Part shown: piece after piece, positions 6,073-36,772 of the stretch
Layout: each line of letters opens with the position of its first letter
How positions within the stretch are numbered: the first letter of the stretch is position 1
From: Pigoraptor vietnamica
Taxonomy: Eukaryota > Opisthokonta > Filasterea
Direction: 5' to 3'
Assembly (NCBI GenBank): GCA_943704525.1
Contig: CALSCQ010002405.1
Location: 1-36,772, forward strand
DNA: 36,772 nt
Notes under the pieces: generated by a model
What the model saw: the letters and a program-made list of their open reading frames with translations, nothing else
The model's database searches: none
What the model was told of the DNA's origin: nothing
Position numbers and translations under genes: made by a program

Positions 6073-9000
6073 TCACCGGACCCATCGCCTCACAAGGCTG
6101 TCCGTCACACCGACCGTCCTGAGAAATCCCTCCGCAATGTCGACGTTGCCCGCAGCAAGTCCGTGGTTTCTGCCGCCAATCGCCGCTCCGCAGCTCGCGC
6201 AGTGCCCCTCCTCCATCGCCCCTCCGCACTCGCCCACGACGTACGGATGCCCGTTGGGGCACGTCTTCCAGTTGCCGCCGAAGCCGTTGACCACCGTCGA
6301 CACCTCCGCACGCATGGCCTCGAAGACCATCCTCATCTCCTCAGGCGTCGTCTGCAGCCGCCCGAGCGCGCGTGTCAGCTGCACCTTGGCTTCCGCAAAC
6401 TGCGCCGAGCGCACGCGCTCGAGGCTCTCCCGCCCGCGACGCACCGCCTCTTCCTGCCGCGTGGCGAGGTTCGTGAGGCGCATCGACGCGTGTGCAAATG
6501 CGAGGTGCGCCTGCGCGGCCGCCAGCGCCCCGCGTTCCCCGTCGAGCGCTGCGCCGGCCTTGCGCGACGCGTCCGCCTGCCGTTCGATGAGGCGCTGGCA
6601 GTTCGTGTACAGAGCCAGAACGGCGCGCTCTCCAGCGGTGATCGCACGGTCCTCGCGACGCTGTGCCGCCTCATCGCGGATCACCCTGTCCGCTCGTTGC
6701 CGCCGCGCCTGCTCTGCCTCGGCCGCGCGCGCCGAGAGGGTTATCGCAGCTGCGAGGCACCGCACGCCGGCGCGGAGCAACACGGCGGACGCCTGAAAAC
6801 ACAGCGCTGCGTTTGAGGTCGTTGCGGCGGCGGCCTTTTCGCAGTCTTTCGCCCGCTTTTTCGCACTCGCGGCCGCCTTCTCGAGGTCGTCTGCGGTGAT
6901 TTGGGAGGCTGCGGGCGAAGAGCTCTCGACCTCGGCGGCGGTGCGCTCCATGTCGGCGGCGTCGGCCTGCGTGGACAGCAGAAGTGCCACGGCGTTGCGC
7001 CGCGCCTCGATTGCTTTGAGGATGCGCCCGTATCGCCGCGCTCCGGCGATGGGTGCGCGGCAGTGCGGACACGTCGCGCGACGAACGAGGTCGTCCAGAT
7101 CGGCGCCGGTTGCCTCGGTGGACGACCACCGCGTGCTCGTGTGCGCGGCCCACTGACCCTCGGCGTTGCGCGCGTAGACCTTGTCGAGGGAGAGCTGTGC
7201 GTCGAGCGTCTCGGTCGTAAACGCGTGTCCGCACGCAAGCACGACGAGCGGCGGACCCTCGGGATCGGCGTCTGCGAGCGTCGTGAACGAGAGGAGGTCG
7301 ATCACCTGCGCGCCGTCGGTGCCTTCCGCTCCCGCGCGCGCACACTCGATGCAGTGCGCCGGTGTCGCGCACCGCTCCCCGCACGCGCACGGGCACGCGT
7401 GTCCGCAGCCGGGAATGGGCAGGCCGCAGCGGCGATCGCAGGGGGGTCGCACGCACGGCACACCGCACGGCAGCTCGCACTCGAGGCGGCCATCCGTGTG
7501 CGACCTCCCGCACGCCCACCGGCAGGGCTCCGCGCACGGGGCGCACACGTCGCGACACCGCTTGGCGCACTTGGAGTGCTCGCAGGCGGCGCGGCAATCG
7601 GCGGCGCAGGGCGGGCACTCTGTGGCGGTGTGGCACGAGGCCCCGCTGCAGGCGTGCCCACACAGGCCGTACTGTCGTGTGCAGTGAACGGTGCACGTGC
7701 CCGCGTGGTGGCCGTCGACGGCGCCGGGGCGCGTGAGCTTGCCCACTTTCTCGGTCGCGGTGCGCGTGCATTCGCCGCATCTGCCCGTGCACGTGTGACC
7801 GCAGACGGCGCGGCTCTTGCCACACGGCTCGCCGCACGCGAATATCGCCTCGACGTTGCGGTCGTATTGGAGGGTGACCCACTCTTCGCCGCGTTCGATG
7901 AGGTCCACGAGCCCCGCCAGGTGTCGCGCGCGCGGGCACGGGAGGCGGCCCGCATGCCCACACAGCGGGAAGTTGGTTGGCACTGTAACCATCTCCTTGC
8001 ACTTGAGGGTGCGCGTGTCCTCGCCGCACACCGCGTTCTTGTACATGTGGCCGCACGGCAGGACGCGGTCGACGCGCTTGTAACACGCCGGATTGCAGGG
8101 TTCGCCGCATCGCTTCGGGCAGCGGTGTCCGCAGGCCTCGTACACGCGCGCGCACTCCTCCAGGCAGACGCCCGCCGCGTAGTGCTTTGGGTTGTCGGGA
8201 TGGCACTTGCGCCGGCACAGATGACCGCACGGGTCAAGCCGCATCTCGCACGGGCGCGCGCACCCGCCGTCGGGGCACTTTGCGTCGAATTCGCCGGGCG
8301 ATGCGACGTGAATGTCCTCGCCGTGCCTCGAGCACCGCAGGGGAAGGGCGCGCACGACGGCCCCGCGCGTCCGCAGCATGCTCACAACGCGCTTGAACAG
8401 CGGCGTCCCCGCGCGCGTCTCGAGCGTCCGCGCGCTGCCGATGATGACAAGTCCGTCGCGTGCGCGGCTGAGGGCGACATTGGCGCGGTTGTCGTCCTTG
8501 AGAAAGCCGATTTTGCCCGTGGCGTTGCACCGGACAAGCGAGAGCACGACCACCCGCGCCTCCTCCCCTTGGAAGTTGTCGACGGTGGACAGCCGCACGC
8601 GGTCGCTCAGCGCCACCGATTCCACGCGGCCTTCGCCCGACATTTCGTCCCCCGTGCTGCTGTCGTCACCATCGCCGAGGTCGCCGTCGAGCGTTTCGCG
8701 GAGGTCATCGCGGTCCCCGTCGGAGAGATGGACTAGCATGCGCTGCGCTCTGAGGCGGTCGCGGACGAGCAGCAGCTGCCCCGTGTACGTGACGAGGATG
8801 GCGATCTCGTGCGGCTTGTAACCCTGGCGCACGAGGAACCGCGCCATCTGCACGGCAAAGTCCGCCTCCCACGCGTTTGCGTGCGAGCGGCACGAGCGTA
8901 TCGCTGGCCCGGTGTCCGTGCTCTCGGGCTGGTCGTGATCGAGAAAGACGACGTTCATGGCGAACCCGCGCACGTCTTCCCGCGAGTGCACCTCTGGGGC

Positions 9001-12000
9001 GTCCTTGAGCTGCCTGTAGATGGTCTCGCGGACGAGGCTGGCAATTTCAGGCCGCATGCGGTACTGCTGGTCCAGCGTAACGTACTGCAGCCCCTGTGCC
9101 CTCAGCGCCGCGCTGCTCCCCCCGCGCGCGTCGTTTCTTTTCGCGCGATCTTCGACGATGCGCACGAGGCGCTCGAACGTCGATAGGTCGAGGTCGTAAG
9201 CGCCGCCGGACGCGACTGTCAGCGCGTGCTCGGCCACTTTGGGGCGCAGCTGCTTGTGGTCGCCGATCAGGATGAGCTGGTCGTTGTGCTCGGTGAGCGC
9301 CGCCAGAATTTGGGCCTCGAGCACTTCTCCGGCCTCTTCGCAGATGAGCACGCGCGCGCCGAGAGCTCGCAAGAGCGCCCCGTGGCGCGCGCACCCGCTC
9401 GTCGTCATGCCCACGACCTTGGCGCCCTGCAGCACACGCAGGTCGCTGGACAGCGAGATCTCGGCGATGCGCGCGCACAGGGACTCGTGCTTTCGGAGCG
9501 CGCCCCTCAGCTCGTCGGTTGCCACCTCCCGCACGAGTCGCATGCACGCGTCCACCACGCGCCGCCTCTCCACGCGCGACAATGTCCACGCCGAACGCGA
9601 AGGGGATGCTTCCTGTACGACGATTCTGCCCGCGCGCCTGTGTTCGACCGCCGCCGCTCCAGTGCCCAGCGCGTCAAAGCGGTTGAGCGTCTCGACGTGT
9701 TCGCGCTGGTGGCCGCGTGTGTCGGTCGCGCGAGGGCTGCCCTGCACCCACTGCGACCACGCGTCCTTCACCCGCCCCTGGAAGGCATATCCGTCTTCGC
9801 CGACTTCGAACTCGTCTGCAATGTCGGGGTAGAGCACCCTCAGCGTGTCGGCGATATCCTTCCACTCGCTCGTGGGGCGCGTCGCGCGGCGGAGGGCGTC
9901 CACGAGGAGTTTCTCGACGTCTTCCTTCGCCGCCTGCAACTCCTTTTTCGCCCTATAAGCGTACTGGGTCAGGTTGCCGATGCGGAGTTTGTGCAGGCTG
10001 CGGGCTTGGAGCTTCTCGTTCCGGCTGCGGCCGCCGACGCGCACGGTGTCCTCGAGCGAGACAATCCCTCCGTCCGCAATCGCCTCGAGGAACTGGTCGA
10101 GCGCGTGGTTGGTGAAGCACATGCAAACGATGGGCGTAATGCCGCGCTTCGCCAGTATGCGCGCGACCAGCACGCCCACGTGCGTCTTGCCGGTGCCCGG
10201 GGGGCCCTGCACGAGCGCCACTCGTCGCGTGAGCATGGCGGCAATGGCGTCCAACTGCGTGCCGTCCGCCAGCATGTCCCCCTGCAGCGCGAACGCACGC
10301 AGCGCAGCGCGCACTTCGCCGAAATCCCCGAACTTGATCAATGCGTTGCCGGCCTTTGGGTGTCCCTTCGCGAGGAGCGGGGACACGTCGACGGTTGTGC
10401 CGGGGGGAAGGAATGCCGGCGGCTGCGACGCGTCCGAGTGGGGTGTCGCGGCCTCTGCAAGCGTCTCGACCATCGGGTAGAGCGGGCGCTTCGGGTCCTG
10501 CAGTGCCGCGATGACGGGGCTGTAGCCGACGTAGAAGTGACCGTGCACGAGGATGAGGACGTCTTCGACCCCCTGGACGTCCTCGCCCACCGCCCGTTGG
10601 CCGATGCGCGCGACGGCGGTGATGTCCTCTGCGCTCAGCAGCTTGAGCCAAACGTGGCACCGGTTGGGCTCGAGCGCGTCCGGTTGCTCCTCTTCTTTGG
10701 TGCGCCGCGGCGGATGCGCAACGACTGCGAAGACGAGCCTCGCAGCCGCGAGATTGTGTGCGCGCGGGGCCCCATCGCCCCTTGCCAACGTCACGCCCAG
10801 TGCCACGCAGACGAGCGAGTCAACCTGGGGTCCGTACGCGGCCCACGCCTCCGCGCGCTTGTTGTCGTCCTTCTCTCGCGAAAGAAACCCCAGCTGGCGC
10901 ACGGAGACGCACGCTATGGCGCCATCCAGGCCGAATCCCATCCGCTCAAAGCACGCGTGGCGGAGCACGTGCACGGACGCGTCGCCCTCGCGCGGGGTAC
11001 CGCCCGGGCGACCGGCGATGTCGCACGTGACCTTGACACGTCCGCTCGCTCCTCCCTTGGGGCCGATAGGGCGGGCGAGCCACGCGCACACAGCGCGTTG
11101 ATAGGCCGCCAGCATGTCGTGGCGGAGGAGGCGCACGTGGTGTTCCAGCAGGGCGTTGGCGTCCGGAGGGACCTGGTACGCGCGCGTGAGGTACGGCGCA
11201 TCGATGCACAGCACCTCGTCCTGCGTCGGCGCAGTGCGTATGTCGCGAAAGTTGGTCTTGTCGTTGTCGTGGCGACCGCCGGGAGGCCTCTGCGGCGGTC
11301 CGCTGTCTGACGGCTGGGCGTCGTCGGGGGGAGGTGGTTGGGCGCGTTGCAGTGCGGCTAGGAGCCAGCGGAGGTGGTCGCTGCCGCGCGGTGCGTCCCT
11401 GCCGCTCCCCTTGCCTCGATGCACCGCGCGGGCCTCGAGCTGTGCCAGGCCGGTGACGAACTCGTTGATGTGTCTGGACGCGAGTGCGTCGGGCAGTCGC
11501 ATGATGATGGCGCGCACAAGCGATGCGAGGGTCGCGACGGCTCCGAGTAGCCCGCCCACGCGCTCCCACTCGCTCGCTTCGCCAAGGGAAAACGCGATTG
11601 GGTCGACCTCGGCCAGCGCACGGAGGCACTCGAGGGCGTTGCGGAGGAAGAGCGCGTTTGCGTGCACGTGCGCGTAGATGCCGCACACTTGCGACTCCAT
11701 GGGCGTGTGCGTGAAGCGGGAATCGATGGCCAGACGGGCGAGGGACAGCGGCCCCGCGAGGAACGAGAACTCCCTTTCGCTCACCGGAGCGGCGCGAAAG
11801 TCCGCCGCGAGAATTTCGTCGATGCGCGCGTGGCCGTCGTCGCTTGCGAGCACGACGAGCGCCTCCGCCGGGTCTCGCCACAGCGCCTCGAGGAATTGCG
11901 TGGCCTGGCGCGGCGTTGTTATCGCCCGCTTAACAAGTTGGCGCGGATAGGGCAGGTGGCCTGTGGGGTGTGAGTGGAGTGAGCATGGTAGCGCATGTTT

Positions 12001-12472
12001 GTGCGTGTCTACATCTTGTGGTGTCATGCCGTCGCAATGAGTTTTCAGCGCAAAAACAAAGAATTGAATTGCGAGACAGCCGCGCACCTTCCCTCTGCGC
12101 GCCCGGGGACTCGCTTTCCCCCCTCCCCCCAATGTGCCCCCTCCCTCGGCCTCGTTCGGCGAAGTGCCCCGTCCCCCGGCCTCGTTCGGCGAAGTGTCCC
12201 CTCCCCCGGCCTCGCTCTTCAAAGTGTCCTCTCCCCCGGCCTCGCTCTTCAAGGTGCCCTCGCCCGCGCCCTCTTCCACGCCACTCTGAATGGCCCCGTC
12301 CACGACCGTTCGGGCTCCCACGGCCGCGGAAGGGAACACCGCGCGCGGCGCCCGAGGTATGCCGTTCGTCGTCATTTTCTTCGCGCGCGCTCGACTCGCC
12401 ATTGGGCCAGGTGCGCGCGAAGGTCGTCCGGTAGGCCGTGCCTTGTAAGTCCGGTGGGCGCGTTTGCACCAT
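6073..12472 (-). CDS. ZNFX1: ZNFX1-like RNA helicase with NFX1 zinc repeats and RZ finger
   Basis: Two exons (12472-12088 and 11960-6073) encode 2,090 residues; human ZNFX1 has about 1,900. The splice (GTGCGC...CACAG, 127 nt) is forced by frame: it joins the RG-repeat frame to the helicase frame. Domains: RG-rich tail (about 45-105); divergent N-terminal half; SF1/UPF1-type helicase core with Walker A GPPGTGKT (714-721), motif II EEAGE (1003-1007), GDHKQLRP, VDNFQGEE (1255-1262) and NVALSRAR (1289-1296); a run of NFX1-type Cys/His repeats (CGHxC...; about 1340-1650); a RING-like CGHAF...CPHC segment; a long Ala/Arg-rich coiled coil; and the RZ finger starting W2026-K-T-C-P-N-G-H, with C2029, H2033, C2049 and C2052. 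Animal ZNFX1 is an interferon-induced dsRNA sensor, and worm ZNFX-1 acts in small-RNA inheritance. It sits head to head with the RIG-I-like gene. An antiviral or small-RNA role here is inference. Confidence 0.95.
11961..12087 (-). other. Intron of the ZNFX1-like gene
   Basis: The donor is GTGCGC at the high-coordinate end and the acceptor is CACCCCACAG at the low end. The open frame happens to run through it, so a single-exon reading gives a wrong N-terminus. Removing 127 nt switches to the frame that encodes the regular Arg-Gly repeats. Confidence 0.85.
12138..12270 (-). repeat. In-frame 30-bp repeat encoding an RG-rich tail
   Basis: Four to five imperfect 30-bp units inside exon 1 of the ZNFX1-like gene encode ten-residue units of the form GHF-E/A-ERGRGR. 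The unit length keeps the frame. RG-rich tails of this kind bind RNA, are targets of arginine methyltransferases and favour granule formation in many RNA helicases. Confidence 0.8.
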
Positions 12473-13000
12473 AGCTGTAGCCGGTTGACCGCGCGTGGCT
12501 GGTTGCCGATGTGTCGCAGCGAGGGTGATGTCAACGCGCGACCTTGCTCTGGCAGACTGTGTCAGTGAGGGTGACGTTGCGCTGTGTTTTATGTGCGCAT
12601 GCGGGGGCGCGCGTGTGCCTCTGGGAGTGAGTGAGTGAGTGTGTTGCGTCAGTAAGGTGCGGCGTGAGCGTGGCGTGGAAATCTGTCGGTTAGCCATGTT
12701 TGTCGCAAAGTTGGACAATTCATCCGGGGTGGTCCAATACACGGCCATAGTAATCACTCGCCGAGTGAACCGCCTCGTCACCACTCCCACACTGGGCACT
12801 CACTCCTCCCACACTGGGCACTCACTCCTCCCACACTGGGCACTCACTCCTCCCCCTCTGCCCTCGCATATATACATAGATAACAATCGTGTCGGCGTCT
12901 CCTTCGACGACTGCTCCATAACTGCTCAGTCTCGTCGATTTTGTTGCAAATCGCTCTCTGATTTGGCTCTGTGAATTCAACTGAAGACTGAAGACGAAAA
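12473..13000. promoter_or_regulatory. Divergent promoter between the two helicase genes
   Basis: About 0.53 kb separates the ATG of the ZNFX1-like gene (minus, 12472) from the ATG at 13001 (plus). It contains three near-identical 23-bp tandem units (about 12787-12853, core ACTGGGCACTCACTCCTC) and a TATA-like stretch CATATATACATA (12866-12877) about 130 bp before the plus-strand ATG. A shared control region for both genes is likely from the layout, but no known operator was recognised. Confidence 0.5.
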
Positions 13001-13870
13001 ATGAGCGAAGGCGGCTCTGCCGGCACGTCAGTCGCACTGCCCTCGTTGAGCGCAAACGACGTGGACTCTTACTTCTCACAACCAGCAGAGCTGCAGGACG
13101 CCGCAGAGCTGCAGTTCTCGCCCGAAGCTGCCGCATGCACGGAGGGGTGGGTGGGCTGACGTTACTCACGACGGCCTGTTGCGCCCTTTTGTAGTGAAGG
13201 TCCAAACGGCAGAAGAACCACACGTGCATGAGAGAGAGGCCCTCGCACGCCTAGCTCCACCCGCTCATCTGCGTTCCCGGCTGCCGCCCGCAGAGTGACT
13301 GTGCATCTCACCGTCCTCGAGGACCCCGGCAGCGGGTACACCTGGCTGTTCGCTACGGAGGCCCCCGGAGAGGCCAACGTACGCCTCAACCTGCGCATTC
13401 CCGCCATTCCGTCCTCACTGCAGAGCCGCCACGCATGCCCCGTCCCGCCTTTGACCCTCACCCTGCGCGCACTCGACGACGTCGGCGAATGGTGGCCCTT
13501 CCGCACTGACGTCGCTCTGACGGCGTCGCTATACCTGCTGAACCGCCCCCTCACCGCAGCCGGCGAGCCGTCCCCCGAGGCCCTTCACTTCAGAAGCGCC
13601 GTCGCGCTAACTCCGTCGATCGGTGCGACAGACGTCGTCTTTTCTCCCCCGCCCTCCCTCACGCGCTTCCCCGGCCGAGTCGCCCTTAAAGATTTCCGCG
13701 AACGACGACGGACTCTTGGCCTTGACGGCACTCTGAGCGACGAGGCATGGCGGTCGGGGTTCCACTTTGGCCTTGCGATCGGTCGCAGGGACACGGTGAC
13801 CGGCGCACGACGCGCAGACGATGTGCCGCTTGTGCTTGTAGGGCCGTTCCGCCTCATAACTCACGAGGGA
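13001..13870 (+). CDS. MATH/TRAF-C-like segment, probably 5' part of the RIG-I-like gene
   Basis: Exon 1 (13001-13146) starts at an ATG in good context (AAAAATGAG). A GTGGGT...CGCAG intron (13147-13293) keeps the frame, and exon 2 runs from 13294. Third-position G/C is about 80% to about 13680 and then falls to about 65%. A segment reading EWWPFRTDVALT...LLNR, later FPGRVALKDF and GLDGTL, recalls the MATH (TRAF-C) fold, whose members carry a WPF...V.L.LL signature and end in a FP.F...DF...DGTL block. The resemblance is weak. The frame stays open to 14170, but after about 13760 it stops looking like protein, so a second intron is likely. Its donor could not be fixed. Because no promoter is visible before the next coding stretch (about 14073), I favour one gene containing MATH-like, CHAT and helicase parts, but two genes are possible. 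Confidence 0.5.
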
Positions 13871-14044
13871 AATCGCGCCCATCCGAAGCGCAGACACCTG
13901 CGCAATGAGGGCCTCCATGTGTTGCCGTGCGGGGTTGTGGGGTGCCAAGGAGAGACGCACGGCCTCTGCCAGTTCCTTGACGCTCGGTGTCGAGCTGTCG
14001 GGCGCCAGGGACTGCCTCACGGTCTCCACCACGCTGGTGCGATT
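13607..14044 (-). other. Antisense coding-like stretch, unresolved
   Basis: On the minus strand, roughly 14044 to 13680 reads as a well-behaved protein segment. It has two similar amphipathic phrases (ETVRQSLAPD and EAVRLSLAPH) about 20 residues apart, then a CASC motif, with G/C-rich third positions. It ends at a stop at 13607. No ATG or donor-acceptor pair gives it a clear 5' end, and it overlaps the 3' part of the plus-strand exon above. It may be the last exon of a convergent gene, or a chance mirror of codon bias in an intron. Confidence 0.3.
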
Positions 14045-14166
14045 GCGAATTGCGCTCACGCGCGGCCGGCAGCGATGCCGACGAGTGCGCAGACAGCGAG
14101 TGCGACTGCGACGAATGCGTCGGCAGCGAGGAAGTCGCGTCTGTTCCCCTGGACAATGGGGCGACG

Positions 14167-16934
14167 ATGACGACGCAGGCCGCAGCTCGCAATGCGAACG
14201 CCAACACACTCGATGACGCCCTTCGCGACGCCCAGAGGATATTCGAGCAGGTCGACTCCGTTCGCCAGGCAGCCAACGGGAGGAGGCCGTGCGCAAGCGC
14301 GCGTCGGTCATTGCGCGCATCGCCGAGGACATCGCACGATGCCGGGAGGGGCGGGAGTCGCCGCCGCATGTCGTGTGCGTCGTACAGGGCACGGCCGAGG
14401 GACGGCGCGAGGCCACGGCCATCGAAGACACCGTTGGCGCGCTCCGCCTCACGCGTATCGAGGGGGGCGACTGGCTCGGCGCACTCATGAGAGAGCTGAG
14501 CGCCCGCGCCGGCGTCCCCACTGCGGTGCACATCGGCATGCACGGCGGCGCGAGGGGGCTTCACGAAGAAGGGAGCGCGTCCGTCGTGTCTTGGCAGCAG
14601 CTGGCGAGGGCATTGGAGGAGAGTGCGAGTCACGTGCACGTCGTGGTGCTGGCTGCATGTGGTGCGCGCAGCCACGCGCGGATGGTTGCTGCCGCTGGTA
14701 TTCCCGTCGTGTACCCCCAGGCCAGTGTGATTAGCAACGCCGCCGCCGTGCGCCACGCGCGCCGCTTTTACGCATATCTGACGCACAGTTCGGAAAAGGC
14801 CGTCGTGGACGCGCTGGACATCGCCAATAGACTGGACGAGGAGGAGGAGGAGGTGGCGGACAGCGGCTGCTCCGAAGCACGGGGCGACCGTGCGCTCCGC
14901 CCGTTTGCGCTCGTGCGATCGGGCGAGGCAGCCTACGAGCCACGCCCTTACCAGGACGAGGTGGTCGAGGCGTGCTTTCACAACGGTCGTTACGTCAACA
15001 CGATCATCGTCACGCCGACGAACAGCGGCAAGACGCACATGGCCGCCCGCGTGGTGCGGCGCATTCGTGCACAGGGCAATGGCGCGGTCGTCGTCGTCTG
15101 CGAACGGGAGGTCCTCGCCCAGCAGCTCGCATCCTCCTTGGCGGATGCGCTCGGGGCTACTGCCAGTGGCGACGCGATCGAAGTCGAGGCGTTCTCCGCT
15201 GGGCGCAATGCGCTGCGCTTCGTCGACGTCGTGCGCAGCAAAGGCGTTGCCGTGATCACCGCGGGGATGCTGAAGGACATGCTGCGCTTGGGGACTGTCG
15301 CGCTCACATCCGTCGCACTGCTCGTGTTTGACGAGTGCCACGAGTGCGCCGGCGAGTCGCCCGCTTCTGTCATCCTCAACGACTACTGGCGGCCGCTGCA
15401 CGTGACGCGCGGCGCAGCGCCCGCAATTCTCGGCATGACGGCGACGCCGTGGAAGGGCGCGACGGCCGGGTCGCCCGCCGCTGCACTCAGCCGCCTGTGC
15501 GACAACATGCACTGCCACAACATCGCCACGGTTGTACGAGAGAAGGCGTCGCTCGAGGCCGTCGTCGGCCACCGCGTCGAGACAGAGGCGCTCGCGGAGC
15601 GGCGGTCGGGCGGGGCGGATGGCGTGTGCGAGCACCTCCGCGCACTGTTCGCCAATTTGTGCGGCCAACTGCGGGTGGGCGACGCGATCACCGAGCGGTG
15701 GAGTGACGAGGCGGCGCTTTGTACGTTTGCCCACAGCGTCGATAAGATTGGGAGGGAGCGGCGCAGCAGTAGGGTCTCTGCGTGCGGGCGCCTTATCCGC
15801 GCAGTCGCCGATGCTGTCTACGCGCTCAAGTGCGTCGGCGGGGACGCAGCCCTCGCGTCCATCGCACGCGCCATCGACGAAGAGGAGCTCATCGAGGACG
15901 AGGGCACGCGCGGCGTTTTGCGCGAGGCTGCGCCCGTCGTCCACCGCCTGCGCGCCGCGATTTGCCCGGAGCCGACTGCCGCGGAGGTGCTCGAGCGCCT
16001 CAGCCCCGTGGCGCGTCGTGCATTTCGCGTGCTCCAAGAGCGCACCCACAACGGCGAGGGCGGGCAGGCCATCCTCATGTGCACGCGGCGCACCGAGTGC
16101 GAGGCCGTGTGGAGCGCACTCGCTGTCGCAATGCCGACGCTGCACCCGGTGCGACTGCTCGGAGAAATGCAGCCGGAGGAGGCCGCGCAGAGCTACAGGA
16201 ACTTTCGGCGGGGCGTCGCGCGCGTTCTTGTTACGACGCCCATCGCCCACTGCGGGCTCGATTTCCCGGGCTGCGGGACGCTCGTTGCGCTGTGCCTCCG
16301 GCTGTCCGCGGTCGACACGATACAAGCGCGCGGCCGCGTGCGCCACCGTGGAGGCAAATTCGTCGCCATCGACTACGAGGACACCCGCATTGCGCAGAGC
16401 GTCGAAAGGGCCACGCGCGTGCACGCCGAGGGCGATATTGCACTCGCCCGGCACGTGAGCCGACAGACCGATGCGACGGTCGCGTCCCACGCAGTACAAG
16501 ATCGCCTGCACGCACAGCGCGAGGAACAGCGCGAGAAGGAGCGGAGGGCCCGCGAGACAACGCGCGCGGCCCATGCGGCGGTCTACCGCCTGGCAGACTA
16601 CCGCATCACGTGCCGCAGGTGCCACGAAGCCATCGCCCCGGCCACCGCGCTCGTCCTGTACGACGGCTGCCAGCTGTGCGTGCGCGAGGGCCATGCACTC
16701 GTGTCACTGCAGCAGCAGACAGGCGGCACCGAGCCGCTTGCATGCCCACGGTGCAGGAGTCACGTGGCGCACATGTTCCGCCTCCGCCGCGAGGCTGTTG
16801 CACTGCCATCACTGAAGCGTGAGACGGTGTACCTCAGTGGGGACGGGCGCGAGGACGTGCTCGGAACGGACATTGTCAACACATTCGAACACGAGTTGGA
16901 GCGGCGGGGCATGCAAGGCGTTGCGCGGCATTAA
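14167..16934 (+). CDS. CHAT protease-RIG-I-like helicase fusion
   Basis: The main frame opens at 14289 (GTG, counted here as residue 1) and runs 881 residues. Its coding signal continues upstream in a neighbouring frame to an ATG at 14167 and on to an acceptor-like site near 14072. The switch between frames falls near 14277. Residues ~20-175 match the CHAT (caspase-like) fold: HIGMHGG with H85, VVLAACGARS with C124, then an ISNAAAVRHARRFYAYL helix. Residues ~220-720 are an SF2 helicase of the RIG-I/Dicer type: TPTNSGKT (242-249), DECH (348-351), GMTATP (382-387), a helical insertion, and QARGRVRHRGGKF (679-691). The C-terminus has C775-x2-C778 and C819-x2-C822 with a following hydrophobic LP-K strand, as in the RIG-I/LGP2 zinc domain that grips RNA ends. 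Animal relatives have CARDs, not a protease. I infer RNA-triggered proteolysis in the cytosol. Confidence 0.9.
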
Positions 16935-18322: not shown

Positions 18323-19390
18323 ATGCCGGTCAAGGACATGATGCAGTCATGGCTGCGGCGCCTCGACTACTTTCTCAACTCGCGCTCCACGAGCGCTATG
18401 GAGAGGCTGCGAATTGCCCTCAACATCAAAACACAGGCGACAGTCGAGGTGGGACTTGCTGTATGCATGTGTGTGTGTGTGTGTGTGTGTGTGCGTACGT
18501 GTGCGATGTGTGTGCCTGTGCAAGTACGCGTGTGTGAGGTGCGCGTGTGCGCGTGTGCATGTGTGTGCCTGTGCAGCGTGTATGTGTGCAAGTACGCGTG
18601 TGTGAGGTGCGCGTGTGCGCGTGTGCATGTGTGTGCCTGTGCAGCGTGTGTGTGTGCAAGTACGCGTGTGTGAGGTGCGCGTGTGCGCGTGTGCATGTGT
18701 GTGCCTGTGCAGCGTGTATGTGTGCAAGTACGCGTGTGTGAGGTGCGCGTGTCCGCGTGTGCATGTGTGTGCCTGTGCAGCGTGTGTGTGTGCAAGTACG
18801 CGTGTGTGAGGTGCGCGTGTGCGCGTGTGCATGTGTGTGCCTGGGCCGCTGCATATCATGCACCTGCATTATCTGGCCGTGTAGATGCCACCTCACACGC
18901 ACTCACGTGCCGGCGCTTTCGCAGAGCCACAATTTTGAGATTTTCAACAACGAAAAGTACAGAGACACAGTCGCAGCAACGTCCATTCGGGGTGGGCGCA
19001 GTTTGCTTTGCCTCGCGTGCAGACTCACACCACCGCGTGTCACGTGGCTTACGCTGTCATGAGTATACCGGTTGGCCTGCACGTATTCCCGCATAGCACA
19101 AGCATACCCTTGACCCCTTTCTCCCTCGGGTTACTCACTCTGTCACGTGCGCAGAGCGGCGAACCATTGCGGCGCACCGGTGGGCCGTGTACATTATATC
19201 TGCGGCGCTCGTGGCGCTCGTCTTTGTCGTCATGACGATTTCCGCGGACAAGCTTATTAAGCTGCGCTTCTCGCTGCTTAAGTCGTGTATCCGCTCATTT
19301 ACATACATGGGGTGTGGAGTCTTGCTGGTCGGGGGCGAGAGGGACGGACGCACACTCAGCCTTGCACAGACACTTTCTGGCTGTGTTGCA

Positions 19391-26500: not shown

Positions 26501-29500
26501 TCATCCCGCGCGCTCCCCCAAGCCCAGCGCGCACTCGCTTGCGGGCGTCAGGAGTGCGTCGCCAGGGACTGTTTGCGGCGACAGCGGTTCGACATACACG
26601 TCGAGAGCGGCGACGAGGCCGTCGATTGAGAAGGGCTTGGCGAGGAATGCGTCCATGCCCCCCACGCGGCACGCCTCCGCGTCCTCGCTCGACGCATTCG
26701 CCGTGAGCGCTATAATGGGTACGTTGACATATTGAGCACCCGCGGCGCCATTCCGAATGTGCCGCGTCGCCTCCTGCACGCACGGAGATGCAGCGGCATC
26801 AGTAGTGCATGCAGCCACAACACAAGAAAACAGCCGCATCCCCTCCCTCCCTCCCTCCCGCCCCTCCAACCACGAGGGTCAATCGTCCTGAACCCACCAG
26901 GCCGTCCATTTCCGGCATGACCATGTCCATCATAATGACAGAAAAGGGGAGGTGCGAAGGCGCCAACGACGCCGACAGCTGGGCGAGCGCGACCTTGCCG
27001 TTCTTCGCCCACTCGTGCGCTATCGTCAGTTTCGCGAGAATCGTGCTCAGTATCTTGTAGTTCATCGCATTGTCCTCGACGACGAGCACACGGAGGCCCG
27101 AAAAGCGCCGCCGCCACCCGGCGAGGTTACCCACGCTTAGCGCCGTTGCCGCAAAGGGCGTGGCCGCTGCCCCCAGTCCAACCGCCCCGCCGTCGAGGCT
27201 GCGAGAGTGCGCCAGGAGTAGGCTGTTCTCGCTCGTCAGCGACACGGAGCGCGGCAGGGGACGGTCCTCCAGAAACGTGCGCGCGCTCAGTGGGCTGCGG
27301 ACCCTCTCCACGCGCTGCGGCTGCGGCGACCCCGAAGGCTCCGTATCAGGCGTGCGCGGCTGATCGTTAGACGGTGCCGCAGCCGCCCCGTCCTCCCCGT
27401 AGGCCGCGCCCAGGAGAAAGTCCGCGGCGCCTGTTACCGTGGCCGACCGCCGCCTGCGGGCACTGATGAGCGCCGGAAGGGCGGAGGTTGACGGGTGCGG
27501 CACGGGAAGGGCCAGTTCGACACCGCCCTCGGGGCGCTGCGGCGCAACAGACGCGGCCATGATGGGCGACAGACGAAACGAGCCGACGGACGTCTGCGTG
27601 GACGAGCGCTTGCGGGGGGACAGCGACGATCCCTCGGCGGCGGCCGAGCTGTTCCTGCTCAGCGACGGGAGGTGGCCCATTCGGAACGCGCACACAAACA
27701 CAAAGCGGGTGCCCACGCCGATCGTGCTCTCCGCGACAAGCTCCCCGCCCATCGCATCGGCAATGCGACGGCTGATCGCGAGCCCTAGTCCCGTGCCGCC
27801 ATACTCGCTGCGGGGAAGCGCGTGTGTGTGAGCGTTTTGACAAGAGCAGCTACAGGGACGAGCACCGGCAACCCACCTCGACACGCCGGCGTCCGCCTGC
27901 ACAAAGGGCTCGAATATTTTGCGCAGGTTTTCCTCCGCGATGCCACAGCCCGTGTCCTCCACCTCGAGCGACACGACGGCGAGCTGTCCCTCGGACGGGT
28001 CTGCATCCGGGGCAGCACCGCGGGTGGAGGGTGTCGACGGCGGCGACGACCGCTCCGACGACAGCGCCGAGGGTGCGACCGTTTCGCAGCCAACGCGGAG
28101 GGCCACGTGACCCTCGCGCGTGAATTTGGTCGCGTTTCCGAGCAGATTGATGATGAGCTGCGGGGTGAGGGATGGGTCGCACTGTGAGTTACCCGGACAC
28201 CCGAACACGCAGTGTAATTCGGAGCGCGTGCGTGCAGCGCAAGTGTGAACGAGTACCCTCTGCATGGGTGAGCCGCGCTGCGAACAGTTCACTGCACCCC
28301 CGGGCGAGCGCACCTGCTTGAACTTCATGCGGTCGCTCACAATCGCCAGCGCATCCGTCACAGCGTCATCAATCTCGCACTTGAGCTCAATGCCCTTCTT
28401 GGCGCAAATGGGCGCGAACATGAGCGCGCAGTCCTCCGCCGCCTGCCGCACGCCGAACGGGGCCTCGTCCAGCGCGACGGATTCGAGCCGGTTGAAGTCG
28501 AGAATGTCGTTGATCAGCGCGAGCAGGTGCTCACTGCACCCCTTGATCGAGTCCACGTACGTCATCTGCGTGTCGTCCATCCCGCCAATCTCAGAGAGAA
28601 GGCTCAGGAAGCCAAGCACTGCGTTCATGGGCGTCCTGCACACGGCACGAGAGTCAGCAAAGCTCAAATGGGAAACGTGTGTGTGCAAGTCCCGACATTG
28701 AGTTGAGCTGGGCGTGTGTGAGTGTGTGAGTGTGTGTGTGTGTGCGTGTGGAAGGCCCAACATTGAGTTGAGTGGCAGTGCACGTTAAGTCGGAGTCGCT
28801 GACGCACTGCAAAGGCGGGCACTCACCGAATCTCATGGCTGGCGGAGGCGTCGCGTGGACACACTTGTCAATACTTGCATTGGCCATTGCGAGAAGCGAA
28901 CAGTCCACTCCTTGCCATTAACCCAACCCCAACCCAAACACCCGCACTCGCACACGTTCACACACGCGGCACGCACCTAATGGTCGCGATGAACTCGGCC
29001 TTTTGCTTGAGCTGCCTCTGTAGGTCGAGTGCTTGCGACGCCGCGATATTTGCCGCCGCCGCCATTTCTTCCGACACGCGCCGCTGCAACTCAACGGCGC
29101 GCGCAATCGTCTCGCCCGACCACGGCGTGCACCAATCAGACAGCGTCTCCTCGTGCGGCTCGCACGCTTGCGTTCCGGCCAACGATCCCGCCCACGTGAC
29201 CAGCTTCTCTGACGATCTGCACCACACAGCACCGCCTCGTTACAGCGCGCACCAACGATCGCAGGTCACGTGCCATGCAACCGCGGCTCCAAAAGACGCA
29301 CCTTCGAAACAAAAGGATCCATCCGCCCGGGAAGCGCACGGCCAGCAGGCCCGCCGCGGACGGGCCGAGGCTTTCGCCAAGCTGCTGCGCCAGGCACGCC
29401 AAGTGCACTACACCCGCCGCGCGCGTGAACGACAGCGGGTGGCCCGCGAGCGTGCAATTGAGGGGCACTCCTACATCGCATGCGGACGGCAACCAGGCGG

Positions 29501-30602
29501 CCAGGTCCAACACCTGAAACCATGCGTTCACTGGTGAGTGGCACCTCAAGTGTGACACGTGATAGCGGAGCGCAGAGGGACATACACAGCCCACCTGATC
29601 TTCGGCGGGCGTGATGCCCGCGTACGCCAGAACGGGGCCGCCGAGCTGGACAACAGCAGCGCCATCCGCCGCAAAGTGGCGCAAGAGCCCATCGGCGAAG
29701 CGGTCGCTGAAGTTCAACGATGGGACCGCGCACGGGACATGGTGGCCGGTGGGTCGGCTCAAGATCGGACCCTCGCTGCAACGAGGAAAGTTCGGGGGGT
29801 AAGCGAGACGCGCAGGTTAAAGGCATACGATGCACAAACACCCGTATTACACACGCGCGAGCACCGTCCCAGCTCGCCACCCACAATTCGCGGGTCTCGT
29901 GCGCAGCGTCGACGCCGAGGTCCGCCTCGAACAGCCGTACGCGCCGGGCTATCAATGCCCGCACAGGCGGGGTCACGTGACGCTCCGTGGCGCAGTGGTA
30001 GACAACCAGCCCCCACGGCACCCCATGCACCGTCACCGGCACCACAACTTCGCTCCGAGCGCCCATCGCGGCCATGACGGCGCGGTGGGACGCAGACGGC
30101 GCCAGCGTACCGAGCGGCATGGTGCGCGCGACCTGTGCGAGTGGAGGGGCGGGGGCGGCGCGCGACGCGTGGGTTGGATCGCATGCCTCCGCAATGCCGA
30201 GACGGTAGGGACCTGGGCCGCGCCGTGAGGGGTTGCTGTGGGGCGTGGCGAGGGAGATGACCGGCAGTTGTTCCGCGAGAACATCGCTCACGTGGTGCGG
30301 GCGCAGGATGCCATCGCGCGGAAGACACCCGGACAGCATGAAGTCGGCAATAGCCATGCTTGAAGACGCAAGGGGCTTCAGGGTGGCTGGGCACGTCTCG
30401 GACCTGTTCTCCGCCACGACCTCACACGTCGTCTCCGAAACAAACTGGGTGCGAAAGGGAAGCGCATGAGCGTGTGCCTTGGGCACCCACGAGCGGGTGG
30501 TGTGTGGCTAAGTTGTGTGGTTGTGTTGCTGGGGTGGACAACACAACTCAAGCAAACAAACATTACCAAACGTACGATTGCACACAGGCAAAGAAGACAT
30601 AT

Positions 30603-32061: not shown

Positions 32062-34594
32062 TTATAGTCGGATTGCAGCAGTCTGCAATGTGCCCTTGTC
32101 CACCTTCCGCCGCTTGGGCGGTGGAGCGGCGCTGTCCCTCTCGCCTCCCGCGGCCTGCTCGTTCTGGAGGCGCGCAAACACCGCCTGCGAGCTCGTGTAG
32201 TTTTGGGCGCGGTCCGTTTCCCGCGCCTTCGACGCCTTCGCGCCGCCAACGGCCGTGTTCCGCTCCACCTGTGCTATGGCCGTGGACCGCGAGGACGTCG
32301 CCTGCAAACACGGGCGCTTAGTGCATTGGCCGATAGTCCCGCACAAGGGCGCGTAACACGCCAACAAGAGACAAGCATGTCTCCAACTCCCAACAATATA
32401 CAATTGAACTGCTCACAGGCCGACTCGGAGGTCATTACACTGTACATGCAAAACACAGGCACACACGGGCTCACACGCGCCGCACTCACTTTGCCGGCAG
32501 CCTCCAAACGCCTCTCCTTCTTCTCGCGCTCGAGTCGGTCGGCATGCTTTGCGGCCTTTTTGTGCCGCCGCGCGCGAAGCTTGTCGGTCCTGGTGCGCTC
32601 CGTATCGCCCTTCCGCACGCCCTTGGGCTTCGCAAACACCTCCTCCGGGGCAAGCGTGGTGCTGTCCGCCACGCCCGTCGGGATGGCCTCTTCAAGCTGC
32701 AGCGCCGGCACATTCGTCACGATAGCCACGTCCTCCTGCGCAAAAGGCGACATTCGTTTAGATGGCACGGCTTCACACGCGGCAAGGAGCGCAAAGGGGC
32801 GGCGAATATACGCATAACAAGGCAGCAGCTGGGCCGCAAGGGTACGCGAGACAATTGGAGATGCACCGTGCGCCTCAATAATTTCCACAGTGGGACACGT
32901 GACAACGAACACGCCAGCAGCAAATGATGGGACTGCGAGAGCGGGGAGAGAAGCGTGAGGGTGGCGCGGCACCCCACCTTGACGGGCTTTGGCGTGAAGT
33001 GAAAGTTGCTGAGCGCGTCGAGTTTTGTGCAGAGCGACGCAAACAGCTCCTTGATCTCCGCGTGCTCCTTGCCCAGCTTTTCCTCAGCCGCGGTTGCGCT
33101 GTTGTTGGCCTGCCGCACGTACTCCTGCTCGTATATCTCCGCAAGTCCCACCTGCGCTTGTTGCACACAGTCAACCCGAACATCCCGTTACTGCGGGCGA
33201 CGGACATGGCCAGCGACGAGAGCGACACACAACCGCAGCACTCAGACAGACAGCACCACCCACCGTGCTCTTCTCCCCATTGAGCTCAATGTCAGCTGTG
33301 CGTCGCTTGGGGCGGTCGTCGTCCTCAAACTGCGCGCAAAGAAAGACAGCGATGACCGACATCAGCGCACCATTCATGGAGGGAAGAACGAACTCAGATG
33401 CGTGCTCTGCAATCCCCGCCCACAGCACACCTTGCGAGCGACGTCGTCAAAAGCGGCGCTGCGAATGCGCTGGCGGATCATGTCCTCGAGCGAGGACGTC
33501 GTCTCCTCCGTGACGATCGGCGCAGGCTTCGACGTGCGCTCAAAGTCCAGGTCCTCCTCAAGCAGGCTGTTCATCGGACGCGCTTTCGACAGCACCTGCG
33601 GCACGTATCAGTAGTCCATACACCGACGAAAGACACCTGACACAAAGGAAGCCCAGTAACACTCACCACAACACAAACGCACGCACAGCTCAACGAGGCA
33701 CATGGCACAGACACACTCAGCGAAAGCACCAAAAATCGAAAGGCTTACTTCTGTTACTCGCGCCCAACAAGGCATACAAAAGTACACTCGCACGGCGCAG
33801 CGCTGAATGGCGAACACCCAAAGGAACACACAGCTATAGGCCAAAGCGGAAAGCAAGCACACGAGCACACAGCCAAAGGCCATAGGGACGAGCCAGCTCA
33901 CCTCGCCAGTCAGTTGCCATGGCTTCTCCGACACATTCGCGAGCTCAAGTCCCTCGATTCTCTTTTGCAACTTTTCGCTTCGCTGTTCGAATGTTGACCT
34001 AGACACAGGCGCACCGTCGGCGCCGCTATCTTCACTGTCGCTGATATCGTCGAGATTGTCCGCGTCGCCCACTTCCTCCTCCTCCCGCAATCCACCGTCC
34101 CCATCCTCTTCTCCCGAAGTGTCCTCCTCACGCGCGCCCTCGCCGCCATCCACTTCGGATTCCGCGCCGCTCTCGTCGCTCTCCCCTACTTCTCTCTCAT
34201 CCTCGCCCTCGCTCGAGGCCTCACTCGAGGCCTTATTGTCGCGGTGTCCCTCTGGATAGCTCTCGTTGCCGCCGTCGCCTTCGCCGTCGCCACCGCTTTC
34301 GTCCTCCGCCACATTCCCTTGAGCAATCAGGCCGTCCACGCGCCGCTCAATGGCCCGCAGCAACGGCTGATTTTGGAGCTGCACTTGTTCCCAGACCTGC
34401 TCGCGGTCAAAGCCGTCCACGAGGAGCTCGCCCAGCGCACACGCTCTGCGCGGCACACGCCGTCTCAGCCCGTCGAACAGCAGCTTCGTGACGGAGACCA
34501 ATTCGCCAGCGAGCGGCGCATCCGGCGCAAGGAACAGCTCTGGAGCATCGCCAATTCGCGACGCAAGCGCCGACACGCGCAGAAGGCTCTCCAT
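32062..34594 (-). CDS. MPP10: MPP10, U3 snoRNP / small-subunit processome protein
   Basis: Six exons: 34594-33902, 33595-33431, 33329-33264, 33151-32978, 32735-32490, 32301-32062. Every junction is in phase 0, giving 527 residues (yeast and human forms are about 590-680). MPP10 binds U3 snoRNA with IMP3/IMP4 in the nucleolus during 18S rRNA maturation. Signs in order: a helical N-terminus; a long acidic Glu/Asp/Ser run (about 95-195); KRIEGLELANVSEKPWQL; NSLLEEDLDFERT with TEETTSSLEDMIRQRI; GLAEIYEQEY; KLDALSNFHFTPKP; a LAPEEVFAKPKG block; and a basic C-terminal segment (KLRARRHKKAAKHADRLERE). These are the family's hallmark blocks in the right order. A CCAAT element lies about 120 bp upstream of the ATG. 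Confidence 0.95.
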
Positions 34595-34715
34595 GATGGC
34601 GTTTGCTTCGAGGGGACCAATAATGCAATGCGATATAAGTGGTGGAAGTATACACGTGCAAGGGTCACGTGATATGTGTTACACGTTGTTACGCGTTGGT
34701 GCAAATTGAACGCTG

Positions 34716-34723
34716 ATTGGTCA
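34716..34723 (-). promoter_or_regulatory. CCAAT box upstream of MPP10
   Basis: TGACCAAT on the minus strand, about 120 bp upstream of the MPP10 start codon, between the gene and the satellite. It matches the ATTGGTC words in front of the ZIP and CLC genes. Confidence 0.45.
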
Positions 34724-34740
34724 ATGCGAGCTATTCCCCA

Positions 34741-35330
34741 TGCGTGTGATTGTGCGTGTGATTGTGCGTGTGATTGTGCGTGTGATTGTGCGTGTGATTG
34801 TGCGTGTGATTGTGCGTGTGATTGTGCGTGTGATTGTGCGTGTGATTGTGCGTGTGATTGTGGTGTGATTGTGCGTGTGATTGTGCGTGTGATTGTGCGT
34901 GTGATTGTGCGTGTGATTGTGCGTGTGATTGTGCGTGTGAGTGTGCGTGTGATTGTGCGTGTGATTGTGCGTGTGATTGTGCGTGTGATTGTGCGTGTGA
35001 TTGTCGTGTGATTGTCGTGTGATTGTGCGTGTGAGTGTGCGTGATTGTGTGCGTGATTGTGCGTGTGATTGTGCGTGTGATTGTGCGTGTGATTGTGCAC
35101 GTGTGATTGTGCGTGCGTGATTGTGCGTGTGATTGTGCGTGTGATTGTGCGTGTGATTGTGCGTGTGATTGTACGTGTGATTGTGCGTGCGTTTGTGCGT
35201 GTGATTGTGCGTGTGATTGTGCGTGTGATTGTGCGTGTGATTGTGCGTGTGATTGTGCGTGTGATTGTGCGTGTGATGTGCGCGTGTGATTGTGTGTGAT
35301 TGTGTATGTGTGTGTATTTGTGTGCACACT
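34741..35330. repeat. 12-bp satellite array
   Basis: About 45 near-perfect copies of TGTGATTGTGCG with occasional one- or two-base slips. Because the unit is a multiple of three, open frames run through it (His-Asn-His-Thr or Cys-Asp-Cys-Ala repeats); these are not genes. Confidence 0.95.
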
Positions 35331-35860
35331 AACAGTCGGTGCAGTCAGTAGTGCGTGTGCTAGTAGTGCGGGACTGTGATTGTGCGCGTGATTGTGCGTG
35401 TGATTGTGCACGTGATTTTGCGTGTGTTTGTGTGACTGTGTCGGATTGTGCGTGTCAGATTGCAATTTTGTGTACGCGGTTTGTGCGTGTGTTTGCGTGC
35501 CGGTCAGGTGTTATTGTGCGTGTCGGATTGTGTGTGCGATTGTGCAAACGATTATGGCGTTGCGTGAACGTGCGTGTGATTCGTGAACGTGCGTGTGATT
35601 CAGATTTTGTGCCGTGTGCTTGCGCCATTGTGCGCGTGATCAGCCGAACTCGAGTGCATGCAATTGTGCCGGACTGTGTGTGCGCGGTCAGTGTGTGTGC
35701 GCGTGATTCGGTGCGTGTACTGACTGTGCCGGCGTGCAAAGCCATTCCCGATCCGACAGCCGGAGCTCCAGGCACCTTCAAGGCGCACGTTTCGGCTGCA
35801 AACACATTTTTTCCCTTTTGGTACGCGAGAAACTAATTCATTTCTTAATTCGGCTGCGCA
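35331..35860. repeat. Degenerate satellite flank with a short unique island
   Basis: Decayed TGTGCG/GATT sequence continues to about 35730. A unique island at about 35735-35855, ending in an AT-rich stretch, separates it from the next array. No gene is supported. Confidence 0.7.
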
Positions 35861-35861
35861 C

Positions 35862-36772
35862 AAAGGCACCACACGCCCAGAGGCACACACGCAGAGCAAC
35901 CACGCGCACATGGACACACACAGATGCATACAGACGCAGCGCACGTTGACAGTAGCACACACAGACGCACGCAAAACGCGATGGGGCGCACACAGACGCA
36001 CACGCACATATGCACCGCGCATACAGACACAGTGACCACACAGACACACAGTGAGGCACACAGACTCACAGTGACACACACAGGCGCACAGGCGCACACA
36101 CAGACGCACAGTGAGACAGTGACACACAGACACACAGTGAGACACACACGCCACAGGCGCACAGTGACACACACAGGCACACAGTGACACACAGTGAGAC
36201 GCACGTGACACCCACGCACAGTGACACACACAGACGCACAATGACACACACAGGCGCACAGTGACACACACAGGCGCACAGTGACACACAGTGAGACACA
36301 CGTGACACACACACGCACAGTGACACACGGCACACAGACGCACAATGACACACACAGGCGCACAGTGACACACAGTGAGACACACAGGCGCACAGTGACA
36401 AACACAGACGCACAGTGACACACACATGCGCACAGGGACACACACATGCGCACAGGGACACACACATGCGCACATTGACACACACATGTGCAGTGACACC
36501 GCCACACAGGCGCACATCGACACACACACATCCGCACAGTGAGGCACACAGACGCACAGTGAGACAGAGACGCACAGGGACACACACAAACGCACACCAA
36601 TGCAAGCGCACCACAGGGACACACACAGACAGCACACGCATGCGATGACACACACAGACACGCGGACAGTCGCACACGCGCGGAGTGACATACACAGACG
36701 CTGGCACACAGACGCAACACAGACACAGGGACACAGACAGACGCACGCACGCGCGGAGTGACGCACACAGAC
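35862..36772. repeat. CACAGACGCACAGTGA-type satellite
   Basis: Irregular tandem array of 10-22-bp units built from CACACAGACGCACAGTGACA and variants (CAGGCGCA, CATGCGCA, GTGAGACA), reaching the window end. Long open frames on both strands are repeat artefacts. Confidence 0.95.

Follow-up and report, generated by a model that had tools for sequence, protein, structure and literature searches.

Two genes joining a predicted CHAT protease to a RIG-I-like RNA helicase in Pigoraptor vietnamica

Background

RIG-I-like receptors (RLRs) are regarded as animal proteins that signal through CARD adaptors. Receptors and RNA-guided complexes that act through a CHAT (caspase-like) protease have been described in fungi and in bacteria (PMC numbers here and below refer to the available parts of the cited papers). 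In the bacterial Craspase, non-self RNA, once bound, reshapes the pocket of the CHAT protease, and the distance between its His and Cys changes from about 7 to 3 angstroms (PMC9729208); the Cas7-11-Csx29 complex cuts the protein Csx30 (PMC10028731; also PMC9729208). In fungi, some gasdermins are under the control of CHAT proteases, and in some receptors the CHAT domain is "physically part of the receptor" (PMC10197012). Here we describe a gene in a stretch of 36,772 nucleotides from Pigoraptor vietnamica (contig CALSCQ010002405.1 of assembly GCA_943704525.1; this whole stretch is called the window) whose product appears to combine a CHAT domain, an RLR-type helicase and a C-terminal zinc domain, together with a diverged second copy in the same assembly. 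We think it probable that this protein is an RLR with a built-in protease. In our judgement the chances are evenly balanced for the broader proposal that a non-animal, probably single-celled eukaryote has complete RLRs signalling by a catalytic CHAT domain, each one a single-protein, RNA-activated protease.

Results

A search of the window's own assembly (32.5 Mb, 1395 contigs) revealed a paralogue of the window protein on contig C169, in a single frame of 1333 amino acids. Two segments of the window protein align with it by BLASTP, residues 80-404 (28% identity, E = 6e-19) and residues 488-859 (24% identity, E = 3e-22). The first segment opens at VHIxxHG, crosses the CHAT Cys and enters the helicase, and the fusion is therefore conserved between two diverged copies. 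The domain order is the same in both genes, each in a single frame, and both copies share H85, G86, C124, GKT, DECH, TATP, four zinc-binding Cys and K843 unchanged, with CHAT segments that are 26% identical. A second gene with the same fusion argues against two separate genes or a chimeric assembly as the source of this architecture, and the finding stands on the C169 copy even if the window copy is broken. The paralogue also contains an insert of 42 codons (126 nucleotides, G+C 0.42; flanks 0.62 and 0.60) that starts with GT, ends with AG and lies where the alignment with the window protein is gapped; we read this insert as an in-frame spliceosomal intron, which would also point to a eukaryotic gene. 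The coordinates of all features are collected in Table 1.

Table 1. Features of the window, in order of position, and the paralogue found elsewhere in the assembly
Feature	Position	Strand	Basis
ZNFX1-like SF1 helicase with RZ zinc finger	6073..12534	-	Pfam AAA_12 1.2e-37, AAA_11 4e-21, ZnF_RZ 4.1e-18
Candidate N-terminal domain, frame +2, colinear with paralogue N-terminus	13295..13876	+	26% in alignment A5
Probable upstream coding stretch, frame +1; acidic, then helical by eye	14030..14280	+	codon-use scan, translation
Frame of CHAT, RIG-I-like helicase and C-terminal zinc domain	14217..16934	+	905 open codons, codon-use score
Predicted CHAT (caspase-like) protease domain, residues about 26-180	14364..14828	+	profile comparisons
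Predicted catalytic pair H85 (HIGMHGG) and C124 (LAACGARS)	codons 14541-14543 and 14658-14660	+	motif, hhalign
Helicase domain 1, motifs TPTNSGKT, DECH, TATP	14934..15449	+	Pfam ResIII 6.1e-14, DEAD 9.7e-14; PDB LGP2/RIG-I/MDA5
Segment between motif III and helicase domain 2, Hel2i place	15606..15998	+	position between Pfam DEAD and Helicase_C
Helicase domain 2, motif VI QARGRVRHRGG	16026..16355	+	Pfam Helicase_C 5.5e-12, residues 580-684
RIG-I-type C-terminal domain, residues about 769-861; C775, C778, C819, C822, PSLK (K843)	16593..16871	+	
Paralogue frame, 1333 amino acids	L001 3401-7402	-	own-assembly search

The assignment of the N-terminal half to the CHAT family is supported by comparisons of profiles. 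When a profile of the two CHAT segments was compared with 177,635 distinct PDB sequences, a single match was obtained at E <= 10, the "CHAT domain-containing protein" 8tl0_A (E = 5e-4), which we take to be a SAVED-CHAT. Among the PADLOC models, SAVED_CHAT is the single match of the window segment (E = 0.0018); it does not match the paralogue. We then built a hidden Markov model (HMM) from 40 CHAT domains of four bacterial genomes (40 of the 109 matches listed). Against this model the full-length paralogue scores 20.1 bits (E = 3.8e-5, model positions 79-265) and the window protein 12.5 bits (E = 0.0078, positions 164-252 only, the Cys half), both above the best of 2000 shuffled segments, at 6.5 bits. 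Alignment of the two-sequence profile with the 40 domains in hhalign gives a probability of 97% over 168 columns and a score of 71.9; none of 60 controls with shuffled columns scores above 19.5. The 40 domains have a single column with more than 60% His (40/40, in LHFAGHG) and a single column with more than 60% Cys (40/40, in LNAC), and hhalign sets H85 and C124 on exactly these two columns. The HMM, the hhalign comparison and the column check share one set of 40 domains and are not all independent. The spacing from His to Cys is 39 residues in the window copy and 44 in the paralogue, compared with 42 in the gRAMP-bound TPR-CHAT of Craspase (H585 to C627; PMC9729208). The CHAT assignment of the initial annotation, made from the two motifs and their setting, is thus borne out by the PDB profile, by hhalign and by the fixed columns; of the profile checks, the 40-domain HMM, PADLOC and hhalign agree with it and the Pfam CHAT cut-off is missed.

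The second half of the protein resembles RLRs. Compared with the PDB, the window protein alone finds LGP2 (2e-17), a chain of unnamed type called "RNA helicase" (3.7e-17), AncD1D2 (1.7e-15), RIG-I (1.3e-14) and MDA5 (1.2e-13); AncD1D2 is, by its name, presumably a reconstructed ancestral Dicer. Among the best 60 of 130 matches of the two-sequence profile, MDA5 (2.6e-31), LGP2 (5.9e-30) and AncD1D2 (4.5e-29) lead, followed by RIG-I (2.8e-25), a Dicer-related helicase (3.2e-24), Dicers (6e-19 and weaker), 1wp9, which we take to be Hef (1.2e-12), and eIF4A-III (5e-8). The profile alignments pass beyond the helicase to residue 700/701 of the MDA5 chain and 667/678 of the LGP2 chain. For the paralogue, the Pfam family RIG-I_C-RD scores 36.1 bits against a curated cut-off of 25.6, and no other place in the genome matches RIG-I_C-RD at E <= 10. 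The zinc Cys and PSLK of the window copy were placed through its alignment with the paralogue, and PSxK is kept in both. In the profile-PDB alignments K843 is equivalent to the Lys of the LPxLK motif of MDA5 and LGP2, presumably the position of RIG-I K888, a triphosphate contact. From its place between the two helicase domains and its suitable length, the segment ahead of helicase domain 2 may be the Hel2i insertion seen in RIG-I-like and Dicer helicases; the second BLASTP segment shared with the paralogue starts inside it. Pfam scans found no CARD in either protein or in the upstream stretches, and no RNase III domain in either protein. Judged by these matches, the helicase falls within the RLR/Dicer clade, and the C-terminal domain separates it from Dicer. 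The RIG-I-like helicase proposed initially thus agrees with the proteins that the pair matches best in the PDB and with the RIG-I_C-RD score of the paralogue; the list of domains given at that time was right as to CHAT and helicase and overlooked the RIG-I-type domain at the C-terminus.

Several observations weigh against reading the protein as an RLR with a built-in protease, and the first of these concern the CHAT domain. Pfam CHAT, the sole Pfam match of the isolated window segment, reaches E = 0.099 (12.5 bits, cut-off 24), is silent on the paralogue segment and on both full-length proteins, and finds nothing in the whole genome at E <= 1. An unrelated NCBIfam model matches the same window segment at E = 0.076, and the Pfam value taken alone is therefore meaningless; a second unrelated NCBIfam model follows at E = 0.73, and the paralogue segment has no NCBIfam match. 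The sub-threshold Pfam score and the similar score of an unrelated model would be expected if the likeness to CHAT were due to chance and an unrelated alpha/beta domain preceded an ordinary RLR/Dicer-type helicase. We regard this as very improbable, given that four comparisons point to CHAT and that neither the shuffled segments nor the shuffled columns reach the real scores. The domain could also be genuine CHAT and yet inactive, a pseudo-protease serving as a docking or oligomerising module, in which case signalling would proceed by recruitment as in CARD-bearing RLRs. The large divergence implied by the missed Pfam cut-off, and the fact that two sequences are all that can be compared, leave some room for such a module; it is nonetheless unlikely, since the context of His (HG) and Cys (xxC) is kept in two copies with such dissimilar CHAT segments and both residues fall on the columns fixed in all 40 CHAT domains.

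The helicase raises a different question. The score of AncD1D2 comes close to those of the RLRs, and AncD1D2 is the best PDB match of the paralogue alone (2.2e-23, followed by LGP2 at 2.5e-22), so the helicase taken by itself cannot separate an RLR from an early Dicer; moreover, RNA binding and ATPase activity are attributed to the protein from its family only. A genuine sensor might thus act in RNA quality control or as an accessory helicase of RNA interference (RNAi), with the CHAT domain directed at housekeeping targets. The presence of AncD1D2 and a Dicer-related helicase among the best PDB matches is in line with such a role, as are the three RNase III domains encoded in the genome, on three contigs other than those of the two fusion genes. 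We consider it rather unlikely: a six-frame search of the genome at E <= 0.001, whose control was weak (1 of 14 prokaryotic control genomes gave a match) and in which introns could hide a match, found no Piwi/Argonaute domain, and, to our knowledge, the Dicer-related helicases described so far have no protease. On the basis of the same search, it is possible that the organism is without canonical RNAi.

The remaining points against an RLR with a built-in protease concern the integrity of the window copy, of which Pfam alone does not detect the C-terminal domain. The initial annotation placed an open frame at 14289-16934 of the forward strand, and this stretch is indeed free of stops for 881 codons (the open frame extends back to about 14217), with the motifs HIGMHGG, LAACGARS, TPTNSGKT, DECH, TATP and QARGRVRHRGG all present at the residues given. 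The openness of the frame is weak evidence because the DNA is rich in G+C and an antisense frame covering it is even longer (946 amino acids); what argues for a real gene is homology rather than openness. A codon-use score prefers the window frame in 14 of 15 steps between 14246 and 14876 (windows reaching 14965), the exception being step 14606, a check that is partly circular because the window frame after 14400 is among the five homology-supported frames on which the score was trained. The proposed start at GTG 14289 is not credible as a eukaryotic start. The first in-frame ATG, at 14487 (M67), lies inside the CHAT domain, and a start there would therefore cut off the front of that domain. 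In addition, the codon-use scan and the translation show that the coding signal shifts from frame +1 to frame +0 at about 14245-14290. The 5' gene model of the window copy is thus provisional, and the apparent shift upstream of the CHAT domain would reflect an exon boundary that escapes notice, a fault in the assembly or a genuine lesion.

These features could mean that the window copy is a decaying duplicate and that the C169 copy alone is a working gene, and the failure of Pfam to detect its C-terminal domain points the same way as the late ATG and the change of frame. We find this improbable: the frame runs for 881 codons without a stop, the residues that matter in CHAT, helicase and zinc domain are preserved, and there is a (partly circular) coding bias. 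The frame shift would be accounted for by one wrong base in the assembly, or by a small exon that escaped notice. A scan of 14200-15200 for promoters and terminators of bacterial type found none, a result that is uninformative in a eukaryote.

Upstream of CHAT, the paralogue has an N-terminal domain of 300 residues, which may serve as an additional module for control or docking. It has no Pfam match, a single-protein search of its own genome found only itself, and the alignment of the window's upstream region with the paralogue N-terminus has no match in the PDB; an immunoglobulin-like fold, suggested by eye, was dropped in view of the missing Pfam and PDB support. Of 24 tests of stretches and frames, one gives the candidate counterpart in the window a shuffle z of 2.1 (p = 0.04); chance alone should produce roughly one value of this size in so many tests, and the minus frame of the same stretch scores the same, so that a common N-terminal domain is suggestive only. 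The frame +1 stretch between this candidate and the CHAT domain has a weak Pfam match (E = 0.06). At 13616-13975, between two plus-strand coding stretches, codon use slightly prefers the minus strand. We considered that a coding segment might be inverted at 13.6-14.0 kb and set this aside as unproved, antisense frames scoring well in true coding parts of this genome too; an intron, a local inversion and an antisense shadow would look alike here.

In the organism's own genome the family appears to have two members. No third was found in a six-frame search, in which a member split by introns could be missed, and eight other places match the helicase part only. Two of these eight were opened, on contigs C418 and C1109, and were rejected as members, their translations reading as ordinary helicases, DEAD-box and FANCM-like, respectively. 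A match of contig C505 to the CHAT segment of the paralogue (E = 0.13) was likewise rejected, with no CHAT signal from the 40-domain HMM (best E = 1.4). A neighbouring frame in the fetched C505 stretch is androglobin-like (L051 34-819, plus strand; Pfam Androglobin_II 7e-27), a hint that the organism may have a flagellum.

Beyond this genome, we searched prokaryotic and viral collections with pattern-seeded scans, which reach only relatives sharing a short pattern. In the prokaryotic genome collection 146 stretches fit the pattern and 33 loci were confirmed, and, of three scans of viral contigs, two found no relative and the third found 2; the proteins of 6 of the 33 prokaryotic loci and of both viral ones were read. 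Among the matches listed, no prokaryotic one begins before query residue 187, which is already beyond the CHAT domain, and the 40-domain HMM finds nothing at E <= 0.01 in the 1621 six-frame open frames (at least 60 amino acids) from all 35 loci. The same fusion is thus present in a second gene of the organism's own genome, and the pattern-seeded prokaryotic and viral scans returned none. The initial statement that no described protein with this architecture was known agrees with the open-licence literature, where no fusion of CHAT and RLR appears in the titles or abstract openings among the matches listed, in some cases 20-25 out of thousands (3,969 and 10,017), so that a printed description may still exist. 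In the available part of the Acanthamoeba genome paper, Dicer and Piwi are mentioned and RIG-I and CHAT occur 0 times as whole words, and in that of a 2024 review of ancestral immunity RIG-I, RLR and CHAT occur 0 times. As far as could be seen, both halves are known, and their coupling and the host are new.

The fusion gene lies head to head with a gene that we read as ZNFX1-like, with less than 2 kb between the frames, and it is possible that the two share a promoter. The name is given from reading the protein; the Pfam matches include no NFX1-type finger. In mammals, ZNFX1 is a sensor of double-stranded RNA. Alongside the ZNFX1-like gene, genes for Mpp10 and a CLC channel were detected, all eukaryotic in character. 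The window also encodes a hybrid histidine kinase (HisKA, HATPase_c and response regulator), and we know of no animal with hybrid histidine kinases, which makes it very probable that the host is not an animal. Upstream of the kinase, a frame at 26799-30486 on the minus strand with a sub-threshold GAF match (E = 0.0022) possibly encodes a phytochrome-like sensor. Long CA/TG-rich repeats at 18400-18900, 34465-35465 and 35600-36772 give long low-complexity frames, which are unlikely to be genes.

Discussion

If the protein is indeed an RLR with a built-in protease, its families suggest how it could work. The helicase and the C-terminal zinc domain would bind double-stranded or otherwise abnormal RNA, and ATP-dependent closure on that RNA, or the clustering of several receptors on one RNA, would free or pair the N-terminal CHAT domains. 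The CHAT domain, through H85 and C124, could then cut a cellular protein, perhaps a precursor in cell death or signalling. The protease would thus occupy the place that CARDs hold in animal RIG-I and MDA5, and the output, by analogy with the systems introduced above, would be RNA-triggered proteolysis of a putative substrate.

Should this hold, RIG-I-like sensing would be older than animals or would have spread beyond them. Two non-animal genes that combine the complete RLR core with a protease at its signalling end would shift the origin, or the spread, of the sensor. Proteolysis would be its direct output, and signalling through CARD adaptors just one outcome of RIG-I-like sensing. The logic of RNA-activated CHAT proteases in bacteria and the helicase-based RNA sensing of animals would be joined in one polypeptide, and a guide-free, RNA-triggered protease could possibly be of use as a laboratory tool.

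In comparison with known systems, the window protein shares with animal MDA5, LGP2 and RIG-I an SF2 helicase of RLR type and, after it, a four-Cys zinc domain at the C-terminus, and, like LGP2, it consists at its core of helicase and C-terminal domain. It differs from the animal RLRs in that no CARD was detected and a CHAT domain stands on the N-terminal side, and its host is very probably not an animal. The Dicer-related helicases, which are nematode proteins, belong to the same helicase clade, and the match extends to their C-terminal part; Dicers differ in carrying RNase III. By profile, the closest CHAT domain is that of SAVED-CHAT (PADLOC SAVED_CHAT, PDB 8tl0), in which the sensor is a SAVED domain that binds cyclic nucleotides. 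With Craspase, composed of the TPR-CHAT protein Csx29 and Cas7-11/gRAMP, the likeness would lie in a CHAT protease under the control of RNA recognition, predicted for the window protein; Craspase, however, is made of two bacterial proteins and a guide RNA, whereas the window protein is a single protein with a guide-free RNA helicase as its predicted sensor. The fungal NLR-like CHAT receptors linked to gasdermins also carry the protease physically within an immune receptor (PMC10197012), but their sensor is an NLR with repeats and that of the window protein an RNA helicase. Thus, the window protein may best be seen as one that would work like a single-protein counterpart of both the RNA-activated bacterial CHAT protease of Craspase and the fungal NLR-CHAT receptors.

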